From IMG/VR virus record IMGVR_UViG_3300003691_000040, positions 1-27,008 of that record: a stretch of 27,008 nucleotides of DNA; one strand, given 5' to 3'. Positions 973 through 18,349 of the stretch are shown one piece after another. The first letter of the stretch is position 1. Every line of letters starts with the position of its first letter. The position numbers and the translations under genes were made by a program. Source of the DNA: a virus. Under the pieces are notes generated by a model, which was not told the origin of the DNA, made no database searches, and saw only the letters and a program-made list of their open reading frames with translations.

Positions 973-988
973 AACAAACATTTGGAAT

Positions 989-1032
989 CACTCGTTTTTT
1001 AGAGACATAAATATATGTATAGAAAACGAGTG
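989..1032. repeat. 10-bp perfect inverted repeat upstream of terminase paralogue
   Basis: CACTCGTTTT (989-998) and AAAACGAGTG (1023-1032) are exact reverse complements separated by 24 bases. The second arm ends 6 bases before the ATG at 1039. The loop holds CATAAATA, a one-base variant of the T4 late promoter. RNA starting upstream would fold into a hairpin over the translation start region, while RNA starting at the internal promoter would lack the first arm. That regulatory reading is inference. Confidence 0.6.
1006..1013 (+). promoter_or_regulatory. Candidate late promoter (CATAAATA variant)
   Basis: CATAAATA differs from the T4 late consensus TATAAATA at the first base. Transcription would start near 1019, about 20 bases before the ATG of the terminase paralogue. 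The same variant occurs upstream of two other genes (10260, and 22508 on the minus strand). Late packaging genes would be expected to have such a site. Confidence 0.4.
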
Positions 1033-1038
1033 AACTAG

Positions 1039-1731
1039 ATGAAATTATCAAATATGGAAGAATATGTTGAATGCTCTAAGAGTATAGACTACTTTAAAAA
1101 CCGCTACATAATAATAGACCATCCAACCAATGGAACGATGCAATACTGGATAGGTGATATGTATTCCAACCACCTTAATAGATGTGTTTTCAATACACAT
1201 AAATTAATTTTCTCAGCACCTAGACAATCAGGTAAAAGCACCTTATGTTTAATTAAGTTGTTACATGAATTTATTTTTTCAATCAATGCAGATATAATAC
1301 ATATATCACACAAGTACGCATTATCTGATTCAAATATACGTAGATTTTTACGTATGCATGACCATCTTCCAGAGTTTCTTAAGGGTGATATTCATAAGAG
1401 TGGCAGGACGTTAACCAATATCAAGACTGATACAAAATTATCATTTCTTTCAAATAAGGCAACTAATAGAGGTTTAAATATACCTGACCTATTAGTAATT
1501 GATAATGATATGCCATCGATAGAAGTTGATTCAGATTTAGATTTTTATATATTTAACCCAAATACTGAAGTATTCATTACTACGTTATTCCCTAAAACCA
1601 ATGATGATAAATATAAATCATTTGAATATTATCGCTTAAATGTTCAGGATTTGAATAGATATTCGGATGATTACATACAAGAAATGAAAGGTTTAATAGG
1701 ACTTCAAAACTTTAGACAACAATACGGATAA
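1039..1731 (+). CDS. Terminase large-subunit-like protein, ATPase domain only
   Basis: The 230-aa protein can be lined up over its length with the N-terminal ATPase half of the adjacent gp17. Shared points are the HPxxG entry motif (residues 28-32), Walker A APRQSGKST (60-68), an RGLNIPDLLVIDND segment where gp17 has RGLAISLLYCDE, and FITTLFPK where gp17 has IISSTPNG. The protein stops where the gp17 ATPase domain ends, so no RNase H-like nuclease domain is present. The Walker B glutamate that follows the aspartate is replaced by Asn156. It sits 2 bases upstream of gp17, where T4 has the small terminase gp16. It may be a regulatory or hetero-oligomeric partner of the packaging motor; a decayed duplicate is less likely because the frame is intact and Walker A is kept. 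Homology is visible; the role is inference. Confidence 0.7.
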   Translation: MKLSNMEEYVECSKSIDYFKNRYIIIDHPTNGTMQYWIGDMYSNHLNRCVFNTHKLIFSAPRQSGKSTLCLIKLLHEFIFSINADIIHISHKYALSDSNIRRFLRMHDHLPEFLKGDIHKSGRTLTNIKTDTKLSFLSNKATNRGLNIPDLLVIDNDMPSIEVDSDLDFYIFNPNTEVFITTLFPKTNDDKYKSFEYYRLNVQDLNRYSDDYIQEMKGLIGLQNFRQQYG

Positions 1732-1733
1732 TT

Positions 1734-3266
1734 ATGTCAAGAAAAAACCCACGATTAAAGTCTGCTCATACAGTAGATGAATTAACCCCCGAACAAATCT
1801 TAGAATATAAGAAATGCATTAACGACCCTGTGTATTTTATGTGCAACTATGTATATATTAAGCATCCAATGCATGGACAGATATTATTTGGAATGTACGG
1901 TTATCAGAAAGACTTAGTTAAGCTATACACTGAAAATAGGTATAGTATCGTATTAAGTGCCAGACAAACAGGTAAAACTGAAACAACGTGTGCATACTTG
2001 TTATGGTTTGCTATATTTCACTTTGATAAAATGATTGTTGTTGCATCTAATAAATCATCCAATGCTATGGAAATTATTGGTAAGATTAGATATGCATATG
2101 AAGAGTTACCAATATGGTTAAAGCCCGGAATAAATGAAGATTCTTGGAATAAACATGAATTAGCATTTGAAAACAAGTCCAGAATTGTATCACAAACAAC
2201 ATCATCGGATACTGGTCGTGGTTTAGCTATTTCATTATTGTACTGCGATGAACTCGCATTTGTGAAAAATCATCTCCAATTCGAATTTTGGTCATCCATT
2301 CTACCGACACTATCTACCGGTGGTGCGTGTATAATTTCATCAACTCCAAATGGCAGTGTTGATTTATTTTCAAAATTGTGGCATCAGCAGTTGACAGGTA
2401 AGGGTGAATTTGCGGGCATTTACGTTCCATGGGATGCACCACCTAATCGTGATGAAAAGTTTAAGCAGAACAAGATAGATACATTAGGGTTACGTAAATG
2501 GAAACAAGAGTACGAATGTATATTTTTGTCATCAGATGGAACATTAATTGATTCGGAATTTATTAAAGAATATGAAAAACGTTTAGATGATGTAAGGATT
2601 GAATTTGAAAAAGATGGAGTACCATTTTGGAAACAAATTCATGCTGAAAAAACATATATCATAGGGTGCGACCCTGCAACTGGAGATGGTGAAGATTCCT
2701 CTGTGATTCATGTATTTGAATTTCCATCTATGGAACAAGTTATGGAGTTTAGAGATGATACCATCAGTTCTAATTTTTTATATCAGAAACTAAAAACTGT
2801 TGTTAATTTCTTTTTCTGTTATGCGGGTGAAGTGTATTGGTCATTCGAGAAGAATGGTATCGGTGAAGGATTAGTTGCACTATATGAGAATGATGAATTT
2901 CCACCAGAAGGAACATTAGTTAGTGAACCAATGAAAAGTAGAGTGGGATTAACGACATCGAATGCAAGTAAAATTAAAGCATGTTTCAAATTTAAGGATA
3001 TGTTGGAATCAGGACAGATAACAATTAATTCAGCAGTGTTTATACGTGAGATTATGAGTTATACTCGCCAAGGACAGACATATAAGGCGCAGACTGGTGC
3101 GACAGATGATTGTGTCGCGGCATTTATTGTCATTTTACGTATACTAGAAGAAATGGCAGAATATGATGACAACGTTTATATGAAACTTTATGGATTCCAA
3201 GATGAGAAAAAATGGGAACCGGATGAAAACGACATCGATGAAAACCCATTACCGTTCTACTTGTGA
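1734..3266 (+). CDS. 17: Terminase large subunit gp17 (packaging ATPase/nuclease)
   Basis: This is the motor that drives DNA into proheads and cuts the concatemer. The ATPase domain shows Walker A SARQTGKT (75-82), Walker B LLYCDE (168-173, catalytic Glu173) and coupling motif SSTPNGS (202-208). The RNase H-like nuclease domain has its acidic residues at Asp313 (IIGCDPATGDGED), Glu372 (SFEKNG) and Asp458/459 (TGATDDCVAAF). At 510 aa it is somewhat shorter than T4 gp17 (about 610 aa), mostly from shorter termini. It begins 2 bases after the ATPase-only paralogue, so the two are probably co-transcribed. No recognisable gp16 small subunit is in the window. Confidence 0.95.
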   Translation: MSRKNPRLKSAHTVDELTPEQILEYKKCINDPVYFMCNYVYIKHPMHGQILFGMYGYQKDLVKLYTENRYSIVLSARQTGKTETTCAYLLWFAIFHFDKMIVVASNKSSNAMEIIGKIRYAYEELPIWLKPGINEDSWNKHELAFENKSRIVSQTTSSDTGRGLAISLLYCDELAFVKNHLQFEFWSSILPTLSTGGACIISSTPNGSVDLFSKLWHQQLTGKGEFAGIYVPWDAPPNRDEKFKQNKIDTLGLRKWKQEYECIFLSSDGTLIDSEFIKEYEKRLDDVRIEFEKDGVPFWKQIHAEKTYIIGCDPATGDGEDSSVIHVFEFPSMEQVMEFRDDTISSNFLYQKLKTVVNFFFCYAGEVYWSFEKNGIGEGLVALYENDEFPPEGTLVSEPMKSRVGLTTSNASKIKACFKFKDMLESGQITINSAVFIREIMSYTRQGQTYKAQTGATDDCVAAFIVILRILEEMAEYDDNVYMKLYGFQDEKKWEPDENDIDENPLPFYL

Positions 3267-9229: not shown

Positions 9230-9718
9230 ATGGCAGTAAAAAAGAAACGTAGAGTAACAAAGAAAAAAATTACACCTAGAAAGAAAGTAGTTAAGGATAT
9301 AACTATTAAAGATATGAAGTCTTGGTTGAGTGGTGTAATTGCGTTCCAAGATAAAGATTGGACACCAAATGCTGAACAGTGGAAAGCTATTTTAGATAAG
9401 ATTAATAATTTGGTTAATGATGAACAACATGAAAGAGTGATTGAAAGAATTGTCGAAACTCGTTATGTGCATGAAGAAGTACCATATGTAAATCCACAGC
9501 AACACCAACAATCTGTTGTAAAACAGCCAGTAATACAACAACCAGTACACCAACAACCTGACCCAAACTCGTCGTTGTTAGACCGTCAAGTTGATGAACA
9601 GTTGGCAGCTAATATGTCTAATGTAGATGCAGAGATAATTAAATCGGCGGCTCCTGCTAAGAAAACTCCAGTACCTATCCAGAAGTCGGATGGTTCTAGT
9701 GCTTCTTCCTTTGGTTAA
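9230..9718 (+). CDS. Hypothetical protein with basic N-terminus and Gln/Pro-rich linker
   Basis: The 162-aa protein has a Lys/Arg-rich start (MAVKKKRRVTKKK), a short folded segment (DMKSWLSGVIAFQDKDWTPNAEQWKAI), then a low-complexity Gln/Pro/His/Val linker (about 95-112, QQPVHQQP-type repeats), and an Ala/Ser-rich end. The basic tail suggests nucleic-acid binding and the linker suggests tethering; both are inference. The ribosome binding site GGAG precedes the ATG. Its 3' end overlaps the first codons of the next frame. Confidence 0.65.
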   Translation: MAVKKKRRVTKKKITPRKKVVKDITIKDMKSWLSGVIAFQDKDWTPNAEQWKAILDKINNLVNDEQHERVIERIVETRYVHEEVPYVNPQQHQQSVVKQPVIQQPVHQQPDPNSSLLDRQVDEQLAANMSNVDAEIIKSAAPAKKTPVPIQKSDGSSASSFG

Positions 9719-10253
9719 TACACAATTAGTCAATCGGGAACTGTGTTTTGATGGTTCGTCTATTGTCAATAAAGATTTTTTATATGATTTTATTTTATCT
9801 GGTAACGATATAAGTGAACATAAAATCTTTATTGACCGTATAGATGATGAAGTTAAACAATACAATAGTGAATTTGATGATATATTACAAGTAAGAACTT
9901 CTACTGAAAATTATAACTATTCATGGAATATTCCAGAAAAGTATTTAAATTTGAATGTGAGGGAATATATTATTGGTCTATTGACTTCTGAAGCACATGA
10001 GAATCATTTATCTGATGCCGACATAAATATAAGATTAAGACGAACATTACTAGAAATACGTAAATGGGAAAGGCACAATCTAAATAAACTTTTGTGCACA
10101 TTGATTTACATCATAGATACGTTTCGAGAGAATGATATTGTGTGGGGAACAGGACGTGGAAGTTCTTGTTGCTGTTACATTTTATACCTAATCGGAGTGC
10201 ATGATGTTGATAGTATTTTATATGATTTAGATTTAACAGAATTTTTTAGATAA
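9690..10253 (+). CDS. C-family DNA polymerase (DnaE/Pol III alpha-like) core, N-terminal part
   Basis: The 187-aa protein matches the region of bacterial DnaE that follows the PHP domain and ends at the first palm motif. RLRRTLLEIRKWERHNLNKLLCT parallels the ELxVIxxMGF...YFLIV segment. GTGRGSSCCCYILYLIGV (153-170) parallels GPGRGSGAGSLVAYAL, and HDVDSILYDLDLTEFF parallels the TDLDPLEFDLLFERFL block. It stops exactly where DnaE continues into PDxDxDF; that motif and the rest of the core are found in the gene at 19162. No PHP domain or exonuclease is present. The first ATG lies inside the upstream gene; a TTG at 9711 in the stop overlap is an alternative start. Recognition is by motif order; activity is untested. 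Confidence 0.7.
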   Translation: MVLVLLPLVNTQLVNRELCFDGSSIVNKDFLYDFILSGNDISEHKIFIDRIDDEVKQYNSEFDDILQVRTSTENYNYSWNIPEKYLNLNVREYIIGLLTSEAHENHLSDADINIRLRRTLLEIRKWERHNLNKLLCTLIYIIDTFRENDIVWGTGRGSSCCCYILYLIGVHDVDSILYDLDLTEFFR

Positions 10254-14477: not shown

Positions 14478-15113
14478 ATGGCAAATTGTTCAGACAACAC
14501 ATACAGATTAAAATTTACAGATAATACGAAAGCAACAATAACTGTACCCAAATCTGCTCTTATAACAGATGAGTATGATATTGCACTTGTTGGAAAAACT
14601 CGCTTAGAATATGGTGAGATATTTAATGAAAACGTTTTACATTTATTAGAAAACTTCGCATGTCCACAAGATGGAGTAAATGATGATTTACCTGATACAT
14701 CTACAGCATATGGGACGTTATTAGAAAACCCAGTTGTAGGGCAGGTGTGGTATAATAATACACAAGAACGCACATACATATGGGATGGGGCAAATTGGAT
14801 ACCACAAGGACTATATGATGATGTTGCGGGAAACTCAGGAGTGATAGCAGATGGTGAATCACTGCCACGACCATTAAATGCAAATGGTTATATATTCCCA
14901 TATGATGAATGTACGTGGATTGTTACTCCATTTGCATATCTTGACGAACTTGATTTCATGGAATGTTTTACAGACGCTAACGGTCTAGTAACTATGAAGT
15001 ACCAAATATCTGGAGACGCATTTTTAACTAGTGGAATGGTCAATTATCAGATAATTGGAATAAAATCAAACATAAGTAATGGAACAGTGCCAACACCGCC
15101 TGTGACACCATAA
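14478..15113 (+). CDS. Tail-fibre-like structural protein, paralogue A (core only)
   Basis: The 211-aa protein consists of one module also present in the next two large genes. Its parts are a GKTRLEYGEIFNENVLHLLENFACP segment (39-63), NPVVGQVWYN (84-93) followed by an aromatic WDGANW strand, a PRPLNANGYIFPYDECTWIV segment, and a final YQIIGIKSN strand. The NPxxGQxWYN motif is common in fibre and baseplate-associated proteins of marine T4-like phages. It ends shortly after the module with a Pro/Thr-rich PTPPVTP tail, so this is the bare form of the family. Likely a virion fibre subunit or fibre connector; the exact position on the particle is unknown. Confidence 0.75.
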   Translation: MANCSDNTYRLKFTDNTKATITVPKSALITDEYDIALVGKTRLEYGEIFNENVLHLLENFACPQDGVNDDLPDTSTAYGTLLENPVVGQVWYNNTQERTYIWDGANWIPQGLYDDVAGNSGVIADGESLPRPLNANGYIFPYDECTWIVTPFAYLDELDFMECFTDANGLVTMKYQISGDAFLTSGMVNYQIIGIKSNISNGTVPTPPVTP

Positions 15114-15307: not shown

Positions 15308-16537
15308 ATGACTTATTTCATAAATAAAACTAACCAATTACAGCCAATTGTGGAATTAGCTGATAATCAAATTGGTACAGCACAAGACATTACATTATTT
15401 GGTCGTAAGAAATTACAATACGGTCAAGAAATGAATGAGAATATACTCCATTTGATGGAGAATTTCGCGTGTCCAGAATTGTCGCCAAGTGTGGATATAA
15501 GACCTGACTTAGATTCAACATCTGAATTAGCATCGGGTGTTCCACTATTAACCAATCCCGTGAAAGGACAAAAATGGTATAATACAACCAATAATACATT
15601 ATATGTATATAAGGGCCCATCTAGTGATAAGTGGTTGCCATTGGCTAAATTAGGGGATACTGCGGCAAACTGGGGAGTAATTGCTCATGGGGAGCAGATA
15701 CCTAAACCAATGGGTACAAATGGTTATGTTTTTGATTATGATGAGTGTAGTTGGATGGTATCACCGTTTACTGCAACTGGTGTAATCGATTTTATGGAAT
15801 GTACTAGTGATGACACTGCTGTTGTTACTATACAACATAGTTTTACAGGTTCACCAACATTGATTAGTGGTTTAGCTACATATATGATTATTGGTATACG
15901 TGAAAATATAAATTTAGGTGATAACACTAAACCTGCAACTACAATAGTTCCAGACCCAACTCCAACTCCAACACCGACTCCAACTCCAACTCAAGCTATT
16001 GGAATAGAGACAACAAGTCATTTGACTAGTGCTCCAACTACAGGAACGACAGGTATATGTAATATTTGGAATTATGGTGACCCCGGGGGTCCACAATTAT
16101 CTGATAATGGCATCAATTGTATAACAGGTTCACCTGAAGCTTGTCCTATATTTGGACCAGATGAGTGTGCTCCAGAAGCAGGTGATAATGGTAATGGTGC
16201 TGAGATGGTGATAACAATCACAGGTGGATTAGCACCATATGATGTTGATCTTAGTATAGTTAGTGGTCAATCAGGATTGACCGCAGGTGAATGTATGAAA
16301 ATTGGAACAGGTTCAGTTATTAACTCAGCAATGGCAAATGACACAATATTTCAATCGTATTTTGTTCCATCAGATGGTGCATCACTGCCAAATGTATCAG
16401 TATTTGGTTCATGCAGTGATAATATATTATTCTTATCAGGAACGTTTAGAATAACAGTAACGGATGCAAATAGTACAGTATACTCTGAGACTAGAGATTG
16501 GGTGTATAGAAGAGTCAATGAAGATTTGGGTGTATAA
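15308..16537 (+). CDS. Tail-fibre-like structural protein, paralogue B with Ig-like extension
   Basis: The 409-aa protein repeats the module of paralogue A: GRKKLQYGQEMNENILHLMENFACP (32-56), NPVKGQKWYN (83-92), and the NGYVFDYDECSWMV and TYMIIGIREN segments. It then has a Pro-Thr linker (six PT units, about 217-228) and a beta-rich, Cys- and Gly-containing extension of about 180 aa. The extension has GGLAPYDVDLS and RITVTDANS, the start and end signatures of bacterial SprB/Ig-like repeats. It is likely a modular adhesin or fibre in which the extension is the variable host-contact part. Confidence 0.75.
   Translation: MTYFINKTNQLQPIVELADNQIGTAQDITLFGRKKLQYGQEMNENILHLMENFACPELSPSVDIRPDLDSTSELASGVPLLTNPVKGQKWYNTTNNTLYVYKGPSSDKWLPLAKLGDTAANWGVIAHGEQIPKPMGTNGYVFDYDECSWMVSPFTATGVIDFMECTSDDTAVVTIQHSFTGSPTLISGLATYMIIGIRENINLGDNTKPATTIVPDPTPTPTPTPTPTQAIGIETTSHLTSAPTTGTTGICNIWNYGDPGGPQLSDNGINCITGSPEACPIFGPDECAPEAGDNGNGAEMVITITGGLAPYDVDLSIVSGQSGLTAGECMKIGTGSVINSAMANDTIFQSYFVPSDGASLPNVSVFGSCSDNILFLSGTFRITVTDANSTVYSETRDWVYRRVNEDLGV
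15956..15991 (+). repeat. Hexamer tandem repeat encoding a Pro-Thr linker
   Basis: Six near-identical 6-base units of the form CCAACW/CCGACT encode six Pro-Thr pairs joining the two domains of paralogue B. Similar PT-rich linkers occur in paralogue C and, on the other strand, in the 506-aa structural protein. Such short repeats may expand, contract or support recombination between fibre genes. Confidence 0.8.
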
Positions 16538-16564: not shown

Positions 16565-18349
16565 ATGACATATAATGTAAAACATACGGATACCAGTAAA
16601 AGTCCGATTGCAATAGAAAATGGTATTGAAAACACAAGTCAATTGGACGTTTCGCTGTTTGGTAGAACTAAACTAGAATATGGCGAACAATTGAATGAAA
16701 ATCTCCTTCACATTTTAGAAAGTTTCTCATGTCCAGAAAGCCAAATCGAGCAGGGTATTCCGGATAGTGATTTGACCTTTGGCACGTTATTAAGTAATCC
16801 TACCGAAGGACAGAAGTGGTATAATACATCACAGAAACGTCTATTTATGTGGGATAGTACGAAATGGGTGGCACTTGGGCGTAGAGGTGACTTAGCATCT
16901 AATTGGGGTAGAGTGTGTCACGGCGAAACATTACCACGTCCAGTTAGTTCTACAGGTTATATATTTCCATATGATGAGTGTATATGGGCAGTTTCGCCTG
17001 TACACTATTCTAATACGTTTGACCATATGACATGTGCAACCGACGAAAATGCTAATGTAACGATGCAATACCAATTAGGTACAGGCACTGTAGGTGGTTT
17101 ATGTAATTATTTAATTATAGGTATTAAAGGTAACACAAACAGTGGTGTGCAAGTTACACCACCATCAGCATCACCAACAGGAACACCATTACCATTACCA
17201 ACTCCTGCACCATCTGTGCCGTTGAATCCATTAGTAGTAACTTTCGTGGAATCACAAGGATTTGATTCGAGTATAGCAGGTGAAGTATTCACTCGTCCAT
17301 CATTCCCTACATCAGGATTAAGATGGCCAAACGGGGTTTCATCACCATCACCAGTTACTACGAGCAATATCCAACCATGGCAATTACAGGGTTCGGATGG
17401 GCGAGGGGATGCTTATTATGTAGAAGTACCTAGTTCATATAGTGGCACATTTAATTACGCAGGAAGTGACATCGGTTTAGCTCCACATACTAATGACGGC
17501 AGCCATAAATTTATATTTATCAGTGATGATGGGATAAATGGTAGGTTTTATGAAGTTATTGATATATTGTGGCAGGGTGACGGTTCGCAATCAGATGGTA
17601 TTGTAGTCAACGGTGATTTTACTAAGAAGTGGTTACGCATTAAAGTCGATGAGAGTGGCACAGACCAGCACATAGCCCCTACCATGGCAATGTTTAGTGC
17701 ATCTACTAACGTATATAGAGTTCTTGATGGGACTGACACATTAAATGTTAATACTATTGAAGAACGATATGATGAATCCCCTGAAACTGAGAGAAGGTAT
17801 GATATACATATTACAGGTGGTACACCTCCATACACAGTAACTGATTTTCAAATTAATGATGCGGCACTGGCACTTGGAATTCCACTAAGTGAGGATAGAT
17901 TAACGCAACAGGGTGTAACCGGCACATCACTTTCAGGATCACTAGTACCAATTGCATATGATGCTGGGATTACTAACTTTGCACCTACAAATGAATTTAC
18001 TGATTTACGTCCAGCAACAATAGCTACTATGTCTGGTCCAGTACCAACAGGTGACCCTATAGCAGGTGGTTATAGAGTAGTTGATTATGTGATTGTTAAT
18101 AGTAAATTTGCTTTACATAATTGGTATTTTGAGCAAGATTGTTTTACATTTAGTGCACAAAGTATTAGTGGCACGAGTGCATTACAGTGTGCAGGGAGTA
18201 CAGATATATCCCCGAGTAGTGATATTGCAACTAAACGCTATACAATAACTGTTGAAGACAGTGCAGGTGTTCCACAAGTAGCAACTGCTGATTTACAAAC
18301 ATTAGTGGCATTCCAAACAATTGATTACCAATTGACTGTTGTTCCATAA
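16565..18349 (+). CDS. Tail-fibre-like structural protein, paralogue C with long extension
   Basis: The largest paralogue, 594 aa. The shared module covers about 25-200: GRTKLEYGEQLNENLLHILESFSCP, NPTEGQKWYN, GYIFPYDECIWAV and YLIIGIKGN. A Pro/Ser/Thr-rich linker (about 205-225) leads to an extension of about 370 aa. Its middle part is new to this protein. Its end again has GGTPPYTVTDFQ and YTITVEDSAGV, the same Ig-like signatures as in paralogue B. Paralogues A, B and C thus form a series of one core with none, one or more added modules. The last base of its stop codon is the first base of the next start codon. Confidence 0.75.
   Translation: MTYNVKHTDTSKSPIAIENGIENTSQLDVSLFGRTKLEYGEQLNENLLHILESFSCPESQIEQGIPDSDLTFGTLLSNPTEGQKWYNTSQKRLFMWDSTKWVALGRRGDLASNWGRVCHGETLPRPVSSTGYIFPYDECIWAVSPVHYSNTFDHMTCATDENANVTMQYQLGTGTVGGLCNYLIIGIKGNTNSGVQVTPPSASPTGTPLPLPTPAPSVPLNPLVVTFVESQGFDSSIAGEVFTRPSFPTSGLRWPNGVSSPSPVTTSNIQPWQLQGSDGRGDAYYVEVPSSYSGTFNYAGSDIGLAPHTNDGSHKFIFISDDGINGRFYEVIDILWQGDGSQSDGIVVNGDFTKKWLRIKVDESGTDQHIAPTMAMFSASTNVYRVLDGTDTLNVNTIEERYDESPETERRYDIHITGGTPPYTVTDFQINDAALALGIPLSEDRLTQQGVTGTSLSGSLVPIAYDAGITNFAPTNEFTDLRPATIATMSGPVPTGDPIAGGYRVVDYVIVNSKFALHNWYFEQDCFTFSAQSISGTSALQCAGSTDISPSSDIATKRYTITVEDSAGVPQVATADLQTLVAFQTIDYQLTVVP

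Follow-up and report, generated by a model that had tools for sequence, protein, structure and literature searches.

What does a second copy of the large terminase (TerL), reduced to its ATPase domain, do directly in front of a complete terL gene? The question is raised by a 27,008-base IMG/VR fragment (the whole stretch of DNA analysed here, hereafter the window), for which the initial annotation had proposed an ATPase-only terminase paralogue immediately before gp17. The relevant features are as follows.

Positions 3 to 845: homing endonuclease gene, cut at its 5' end (phrog_3339, 1.7e-90), directly upstream of the paralogue and terL pair.
Positions 979 to 1041, plus strand: RNA hairpin that spans the paralogue's start codon and ribosome-binding region (-25.7 kcal/mol, z -7.8).
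Positions 1006 to 1013, plus strand: T4-late-promoter-like CATAAATA in the hairpin loop, suggestive only.
Positions 1039 to 1731, plus strand: ATPase-only TerL paralogue (pseudo-ATPase), 230 aa, by homology and predicted structure.
Positions 1222 to 1242, plus strand: Walker A RQSGKST (R62-T68), with P-loop Arg and Lys both present.
Positions 1468 to 1473, plus strand: Arg144-Gly145, candidate trans-arginine finger position (TerL R162-G163), mapped by inference.
Positions 1501 to 1506, plus strand: Walker B Asp155-Asn156 replacing Asp-Glu, from sequence.
Positions 1734 to 3266, plus strand: terL/gp17 with full ATPase and nuclease, 510 aa, starting 2 nt past the stop codon of the paralogue.

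The fragment starts inside the homing endonuclease gene, so that DNA further upstream is absent from the window. Its TerL is closest to that of Xanthomonas phage XacN1 (53%) and next to those of Stenotrophomonas phages RAS14 and CM1 (48%), with more distant matches in PA5oct, Phosso, the 121Q group and XaC1, and the gene order on the 3' side (terL, a SWIM-type protein, gp32, UvsX and a helicase) parallels that of XacN1 and RAS14. No close relatives of the window paralogue were found in searches of viral contigs and genome contigs. Elsewhere in the window, three neighbouring genes (14478-15113, 15308-16537 and 16565-18349) are tandem paralogues that all match phrog_15511, a family of unknown function, over their N-terminal ~200-250 residues, and two of the three also match a virion structural protein family. 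In addition, a perfect 15-bp inverted repeat (9765-9779 and 9822-9836, with a 42 nt spacer) lies within a DNA polymerase-like ORF (9690-10253, phrog_11127).

The unbroken frame at 1039-1731 is homologous to the TerL encoded next to it (26% identity over 144 aa, E=1e-9 by BLASTP) and matches phrog_5989, 'terminase large subunit' (1e-16), and Pfam Terminase_6N (3.6e-4, just under the family cut-off). TerL families account for all of its informative PHROG and Pfam matches, and no similarity to gp16/TerS families was found in either collection. Sequence methods cover residues ~8-155, and the C-terminal part beyond them is supported by structure comparison. An AlphaFold model was built from an alignment of 14 paralogues that contained no TerL sequence, to avoid bias (pLDDT 80, pTM 0.80); its best PDB match is T4 gp17 (2o0j, Foldseek E 2.3e-11), followed by P74-26, HK97 and other terminases, and VIA-align places model residues 1-230 on gp17 102-353 with Z 15.3 over 212 residues. 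Because this TerL-free model matches gp17 102-353, the window paralogue is predicted to be the full ATPase domain and nothing else; the ORF ends where the domain ends and has no C-terminal RNase H-like nuclease. The terminase fold therefore holds when the paralogue is modelled alone, and the initial annotation was right about the position of the gene, the parallel through the full ATPase domain and the missing nuclease.

The same is true of the active-site motifs. Walker A was said to be kept, and RQSGKST is indeed intact; because of this the window paralogue may still bind ATP, perhaps without hydrolysing it. At Walker B, LLVIDND in the paralogue stands against LLYCDEL in TerL, and reading this IDND stretch as Asn in place of the catalytic Glu, as had been proposed, appears to be the natural alignment, although alternatives exist because one residue is inserted between the RG motif and the Walker B Asp of the window paralogue. 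Compared with TerL/gp17 ATPases (Terminase_6N; T4 2o0j, P74-26, D6E, HK97), the fold, P-loop, Arg-Gly position, Walker B Asp and domain end are common to the paralogue, whereas the catalytic Glu and the nuclease are absent and the protein is encoded by a separate gene beside a complete terL. Among the properties of a TerL enzyme, the fold and the Walker A Lys are present and the catalytic Glu and nuclease are not.

The arrangement extends well beyond this fragment. The ORFs preceding terL were read in known phages and at about 240 IMG/VR loci, and a whole-record profile search was added; together these revealed 18 further divergent ATPase-only paralogues in jumbo-type phages, 17 of which lie directly 5' of terL. 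Scanning with a profile of the first seven paralogues recovered just two relatives; the remaining ones were found by single-sequence hhalign against TerL and by reading upstream ORFs by eye, and a scan of genome contigs with TerL gave nothing useful. Known phages with the paralogue in this position are XaC1 (XaC1_353), Hallingskeid, 121Q (gene 3), RaK2 (ORF110) and RAS14, and the IMG/VR loci are L022, L023, L025, L030, L106, L107, L108, L110, L118, L130, L132 and L187, among which L106-L108 are relatives of XaC1. The remaining member, Phosso gene 344 (L267:2309-3154), came from a whole-record profile search and adjoins the gene for the major capsid protein, at a distance of about 53 kb from terL; it is annotated as 'terminase small subunit' and reads as a relocated TerL pseudo-ATPase (GIT, ADN). 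The same type of search gave a weak candidate in XacN1 ORF261 (L006:2327-3112), with a TerL-paralogue signal in its N-terminal part and a gp23 major-capsid fragment at its C-terminus (phrog_138, 4.9e-8); it was left out, and the family is counted as 19 (the window copy and 18 others). Weak genome matches away from terL in PA5oct and RAS14 were rejected as paralogues, being PhoH-like P-loop proteins by reading.

Family members are only 15-22% identical to the window copy, and some are short (RAS14, 161 aa; L110, ~176 aa). The model of 121Q gene 3 is of moderate quality (pLDDT 66) and its VIA list has terminases and helicases tied, so that its assignment to TerL rests on Foldseek, position and homology to RaK2. 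The paralogue is absent from some near relatives (L186, SE_PL, L021 and L026); L186 lacks it though its TerL is 87% identical to that of L025.

Part of this layout has been described before. A 'truncated large terminase', CBB_274, was reported beside terL in RaK2-like phages such as phage CBB, and the accessible part of that paper notes an incomplete domain and, outside the RaK2-like phages, names phiM12 and phiN3 (PMC5259590). As far as that part goes, CBB_274, 121Q gene 3 and RaK2 ORF110 (phrog_27915) resemble the window gene in being ATPase-only TerL homologues immediately before terL, and the window paralogue shares the layout in full (an ATPase domain alone, encoded on the same strand as terL and directly 5' of it). 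The CBB protein (235 aa) is also among the structure matches of the window model. A difference lies in the Walker A Lys, which is kept in the window copy and lost in 121Q and RaK2. The same part of PMC5259590 reports no loss of catalytic residues, selection or coexistence with TerS for the truncated terminase, and in the open-access literature searched, nothing was found on how its inactivation is patterned, how widely it occurs, whether it is selected or how it relates to TerS; the inactivation signature, breadth and TerS coexistence of the family appear to be new. As a separate observation, terL of the RaK2 group (L016-L019, L105) is enlarged to 889 aa; RaK2 differs from K64-1, KP13-7, Muenster and W12-3 by 189-193 aa in terL and by 2-4 in the paralogue, and PMC5259590 reports inteins in RaK2 and K64-1.

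Across the family, the losses and retentions follow a common pattern. The Walker A Lys is missing in 17 of 19 members (kept in the window and L132) and the catalytic Glu in all 19, with Asn instead in ten; in the true TerLs from the same loci, used as a control, both residues are present in 219 of 219. Among the 18 aligned paralogues, Lys (2/18) and Glu (0/18) are among the TerL-invariant positions most often lost, while the P-loop Gly is kept in 18/18, the P-loop Arg in 17/18, the Gly of the RG motif in 17/18 and the Walker B Asp in 15 (16 of all 19 members). The Arg of the RG motif, ten residues before the Walker B Asp, is present in 14 of the 18 (14/19 overall). A proven trans-arginine finger, R139, lies between alpha2 and beta3 in P74-26 TerL, and T4 also has an Arg there (PMC5727402). 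The RG motif likely corresponds to this R139-type position, a mapping made from spacing and order alone. Judged from sequence, lost catalysis together with a retained putative trans-arginine matches the pattern of an inactive ring subunit that would donate an arginine. Clamp-loader delta' and the inactive ORC subunits have lost their own ATPase and kept a trans-acting Arg; these are AAA+ proteins, another ATPase class, so the comparison concerns how such subunits work, and ring membership of the paralogue is putative.

All 19 reading frames are open. The dN/dS of the paralogue is 0.23 for L107/L108 (0.04 for their TerL) and 0.07-0.08 for the RaK2 pairs, and practically every bootstrap draw for either set gives a dN smaller than dS; the 121Q group has 2-3 changes and a dS of 0, which makes its ratio uninformative, and RAS14 and CM1 are identical in the paralogue. 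Because dN/dS is 0.07-0.23 among close relatives, the paralogues are working genes under purifying selection where such relatives exist, and the gene pair in relatives, intact and selected, shows none of the decay that would have spoken against the initial annotation. As no close relative of the window copy was found, we infer selection on it from the family. The paralogue evolves faster than TerL (45% versus 86.5% identity between L025 and L187), and it is selected yet dispensable in some lineages: its absence from some close relatives means that it is not essential everywhere.

With regard to origin, 16 of the 19 paralogue rows fall into one group (85/99) in a 41-row tree, with the window copy inside it near XaC1, L106, L107 and L110; no member of the group is placed beside its own TerL. 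A single clade of 18 inactive copies is not rejected (p-AU 0.36), and the branches are long. One old duplication would be the simplest reading of the family rather than a proof, because of these long branches. L214:1001-1789 is another ATPase-only TerL copy before a full terL, which differs from the paralogue by intact active-site residues (Walker A GKT and Walker B DE); it groups with TerLs, outside the inactive group, and is probably a separate duplication event because the tree places it beside its own TerL.

The expression signals may link the paralogue to late gene control. The core inverted repeat of the hairpin over its start (988-1033) ranks first in the list of inverted repeats across the 27 kb, and a transcript begun near 1019 would miss the 5' arm and hardly fold (-0.9 kcal/mol). 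The box in the loop, CATAAATA, differs by one letter from the late promoter of T4. Copies of ATAAATA are over-represented 32-44 nt ahead of ORF starts in the window (6 versus 2.0 expected, p about 0.01), but the motif is frequent in its AT-rich DNA, because of which a late promoter before the paralogue is just a suggestion. The layout, a hairpin over the ribosome-binding site with a late-promoter-like box in its loop, is that which restricts I-TevI and SegB to late times in T4, where sequestration of the ribosome-binding site is reported for soc and e too (PMC2988022). Several relatives have, by reading, a terminator-like hairpin before the paralogue instead. Since the gene overlaps or abuts terL (overlaps of 23 nt in 121Q, 14 nt in RaK2 and 11 nt in XaC1) and follows such a hairpin, paralogue and terL look like one transcription unit in several relatives.

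Taken tentatively, with a little less than an even chance of being right, the paralogue is a partner of TerL with pseudo-ATPase character, a subunit within or attached to the motor that does not itself fire, because the ring fold and arginines are kept, Lys and Glu are lost and the gene is coupled to terL. The protein would be made late and in step with TerL through translational coupling. It would sit within or against the ring of TerL ATPases, at a single position or a small number of them, and lend its arginine to the neighbouring active site without firing itself; it might thereby determine the asymmetry of the packaging motor, its start or its pausing, in the manner of the inactive clamp-loader subunits. 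Inactive members in such a ring are feasible, since the gp17 pentamer of T4 still packages when one to three of its subunits are inactive, at a lower rate and with more frequent pausing (PMC8589836), and since D6E TerL ATPase domains on their own assemble into pentamers that use a trans-Arg (PMC5727402). The earlier suggestion of mixed rings with gp17, or of its regulation, is plausible and would fit the residues retained. Several points argue against a partner in the motor: the Arg-Gly might be conserved because the structure requires it; conservation extends to the P-loop Arg, which is a cis residue; the trans-position Arg is missing from five of the 19 members and the gene from some close relatives; and identity to the window copy is low (15-22%) and the tree branches are long. 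In Phosso, the distance of about 53 kb from terL breaks the translational coupling. The further step, that jumbo phage motors are hetero-oligomeric, with a dead TerL subunit that supplies the trans-arginine and breaks ring symmetry, and not homopentamers, is rather unlikely.

Besides membership of the ring, the paralogue might bind free TerL, for example at its ATPase or nuclease face, as a regulator off the motor, and keep TerL monomeric or block premature DNA cutting until heads are ready. The neighbourhood, coupling, late-type control and pseudo-enzyme signature suit such a role equally, and a domain-mimic inhibitor is reasonable because the nuclease domain of D6E restrains its ATPase and assembly needs rearrangement (PMC5727402). 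Off-motor binding alone, however, leaves the retention of the trans-position and P-loop Arg despite loss of Lys and Glu unexplained, and we regard it as unlikely, in either form. Still less probable is that the protein serves as a TerL look-alike that occupies or blinds host sensors: the conserved phage proteins sensed by Avs1-Avs4 include the large terminase (PMC12931631), the paralogue fold also matches 8dgc, an Avs3-bound phage terminase, and its faster evolution than TerL and patchy presence fit an arms race, but a decoy should retain the recognised surface, which agrees poorly with the 15-22% identity to the window copy, and neither a dN/dS below 1 nor a lasting linkage to terL would be expected of it. 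A decaying partial duplication of terL without function would account for the lost catalytic residues, the shortened RAS14 and L110 members and the absences; the 19 open frames, the low dN/dS with its bootstrap, the loss and retention of the same residues across distant lineages and the well-formed predicted fold largely refute this reading, which is now quite improbable.

The remaining question concerns the small terminase. In RAS14, L022, L023, L030, L187 and L118 the paralogue is accompanied by a gp16/phrog_445-like TerS. This TerS lies 1-6 kb upstream of terL in RAS14, L022, L030 and L187, whereas the three genes of L023 follow one another as gp16, paralogue, terL. A remote gp16 relative, phrog_16202 (match to the gp16 profile with probability 92%, E 7.5e-7), is found in 121Q, RaK2, XaC1, Hallingskeid, SE_PL, PA5oct, Phosso and Vibrio 2.275.O, and its gene adjoins a gp4-like gene in 121Q. 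No TerS was seen in L107 and L110 by the gp16 profile (L106, a short contig, was left out), and almost all relatives with the paralogue also have a gp16-like small terminase. The phrog_16202 gene at L101:1533-2087 (121Q gene 556) is likely the unrecognised TerS of RaK2/121Q-type jumbo phages and PA5oct, and the gp16-like gene of Phosso lies at 294803-295306 of its record. The idea that paralogue and gp16 are mutually exclusive in the same slot was rejected, as the gp16 profile shows both in one genome. Replacement of gp16 by the paralogue, put forward in the initial annotation together with occupation of the small terminase's place, is thus already refuted for relatives and has next to no chance of being correct (the window starts too late to include gp16): although the gene stands directly before gp17, the place of gp16 in T4, and the Phosso copy carries a small-subunit annotation, the protein has no similarity to TerS, and the gp16-like TerS of the six genomes listed first, or the remote relative in 121Q, RaK2, XaC1, Hallingskeid and Phosso, is found farther upstream or in another part of the genome.

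For tailed phages, the packaging motor is described as a ring built from a single kind of TerL, and a homopentamer is the arrangement assumed. If the paralogue is indeed a pseudo-ATPase partner of TerL, the motor of some giant phages would be assembled or controlled with the help of a second subunit that does not hydrolyse ATP. How motor subunits are coordinated is an open question, which the paralogue family would then make testable in a natural system. In addition, numerous genes whose present annotation is 'hypothetical' or 'terminase small subunit' would share a common identity.
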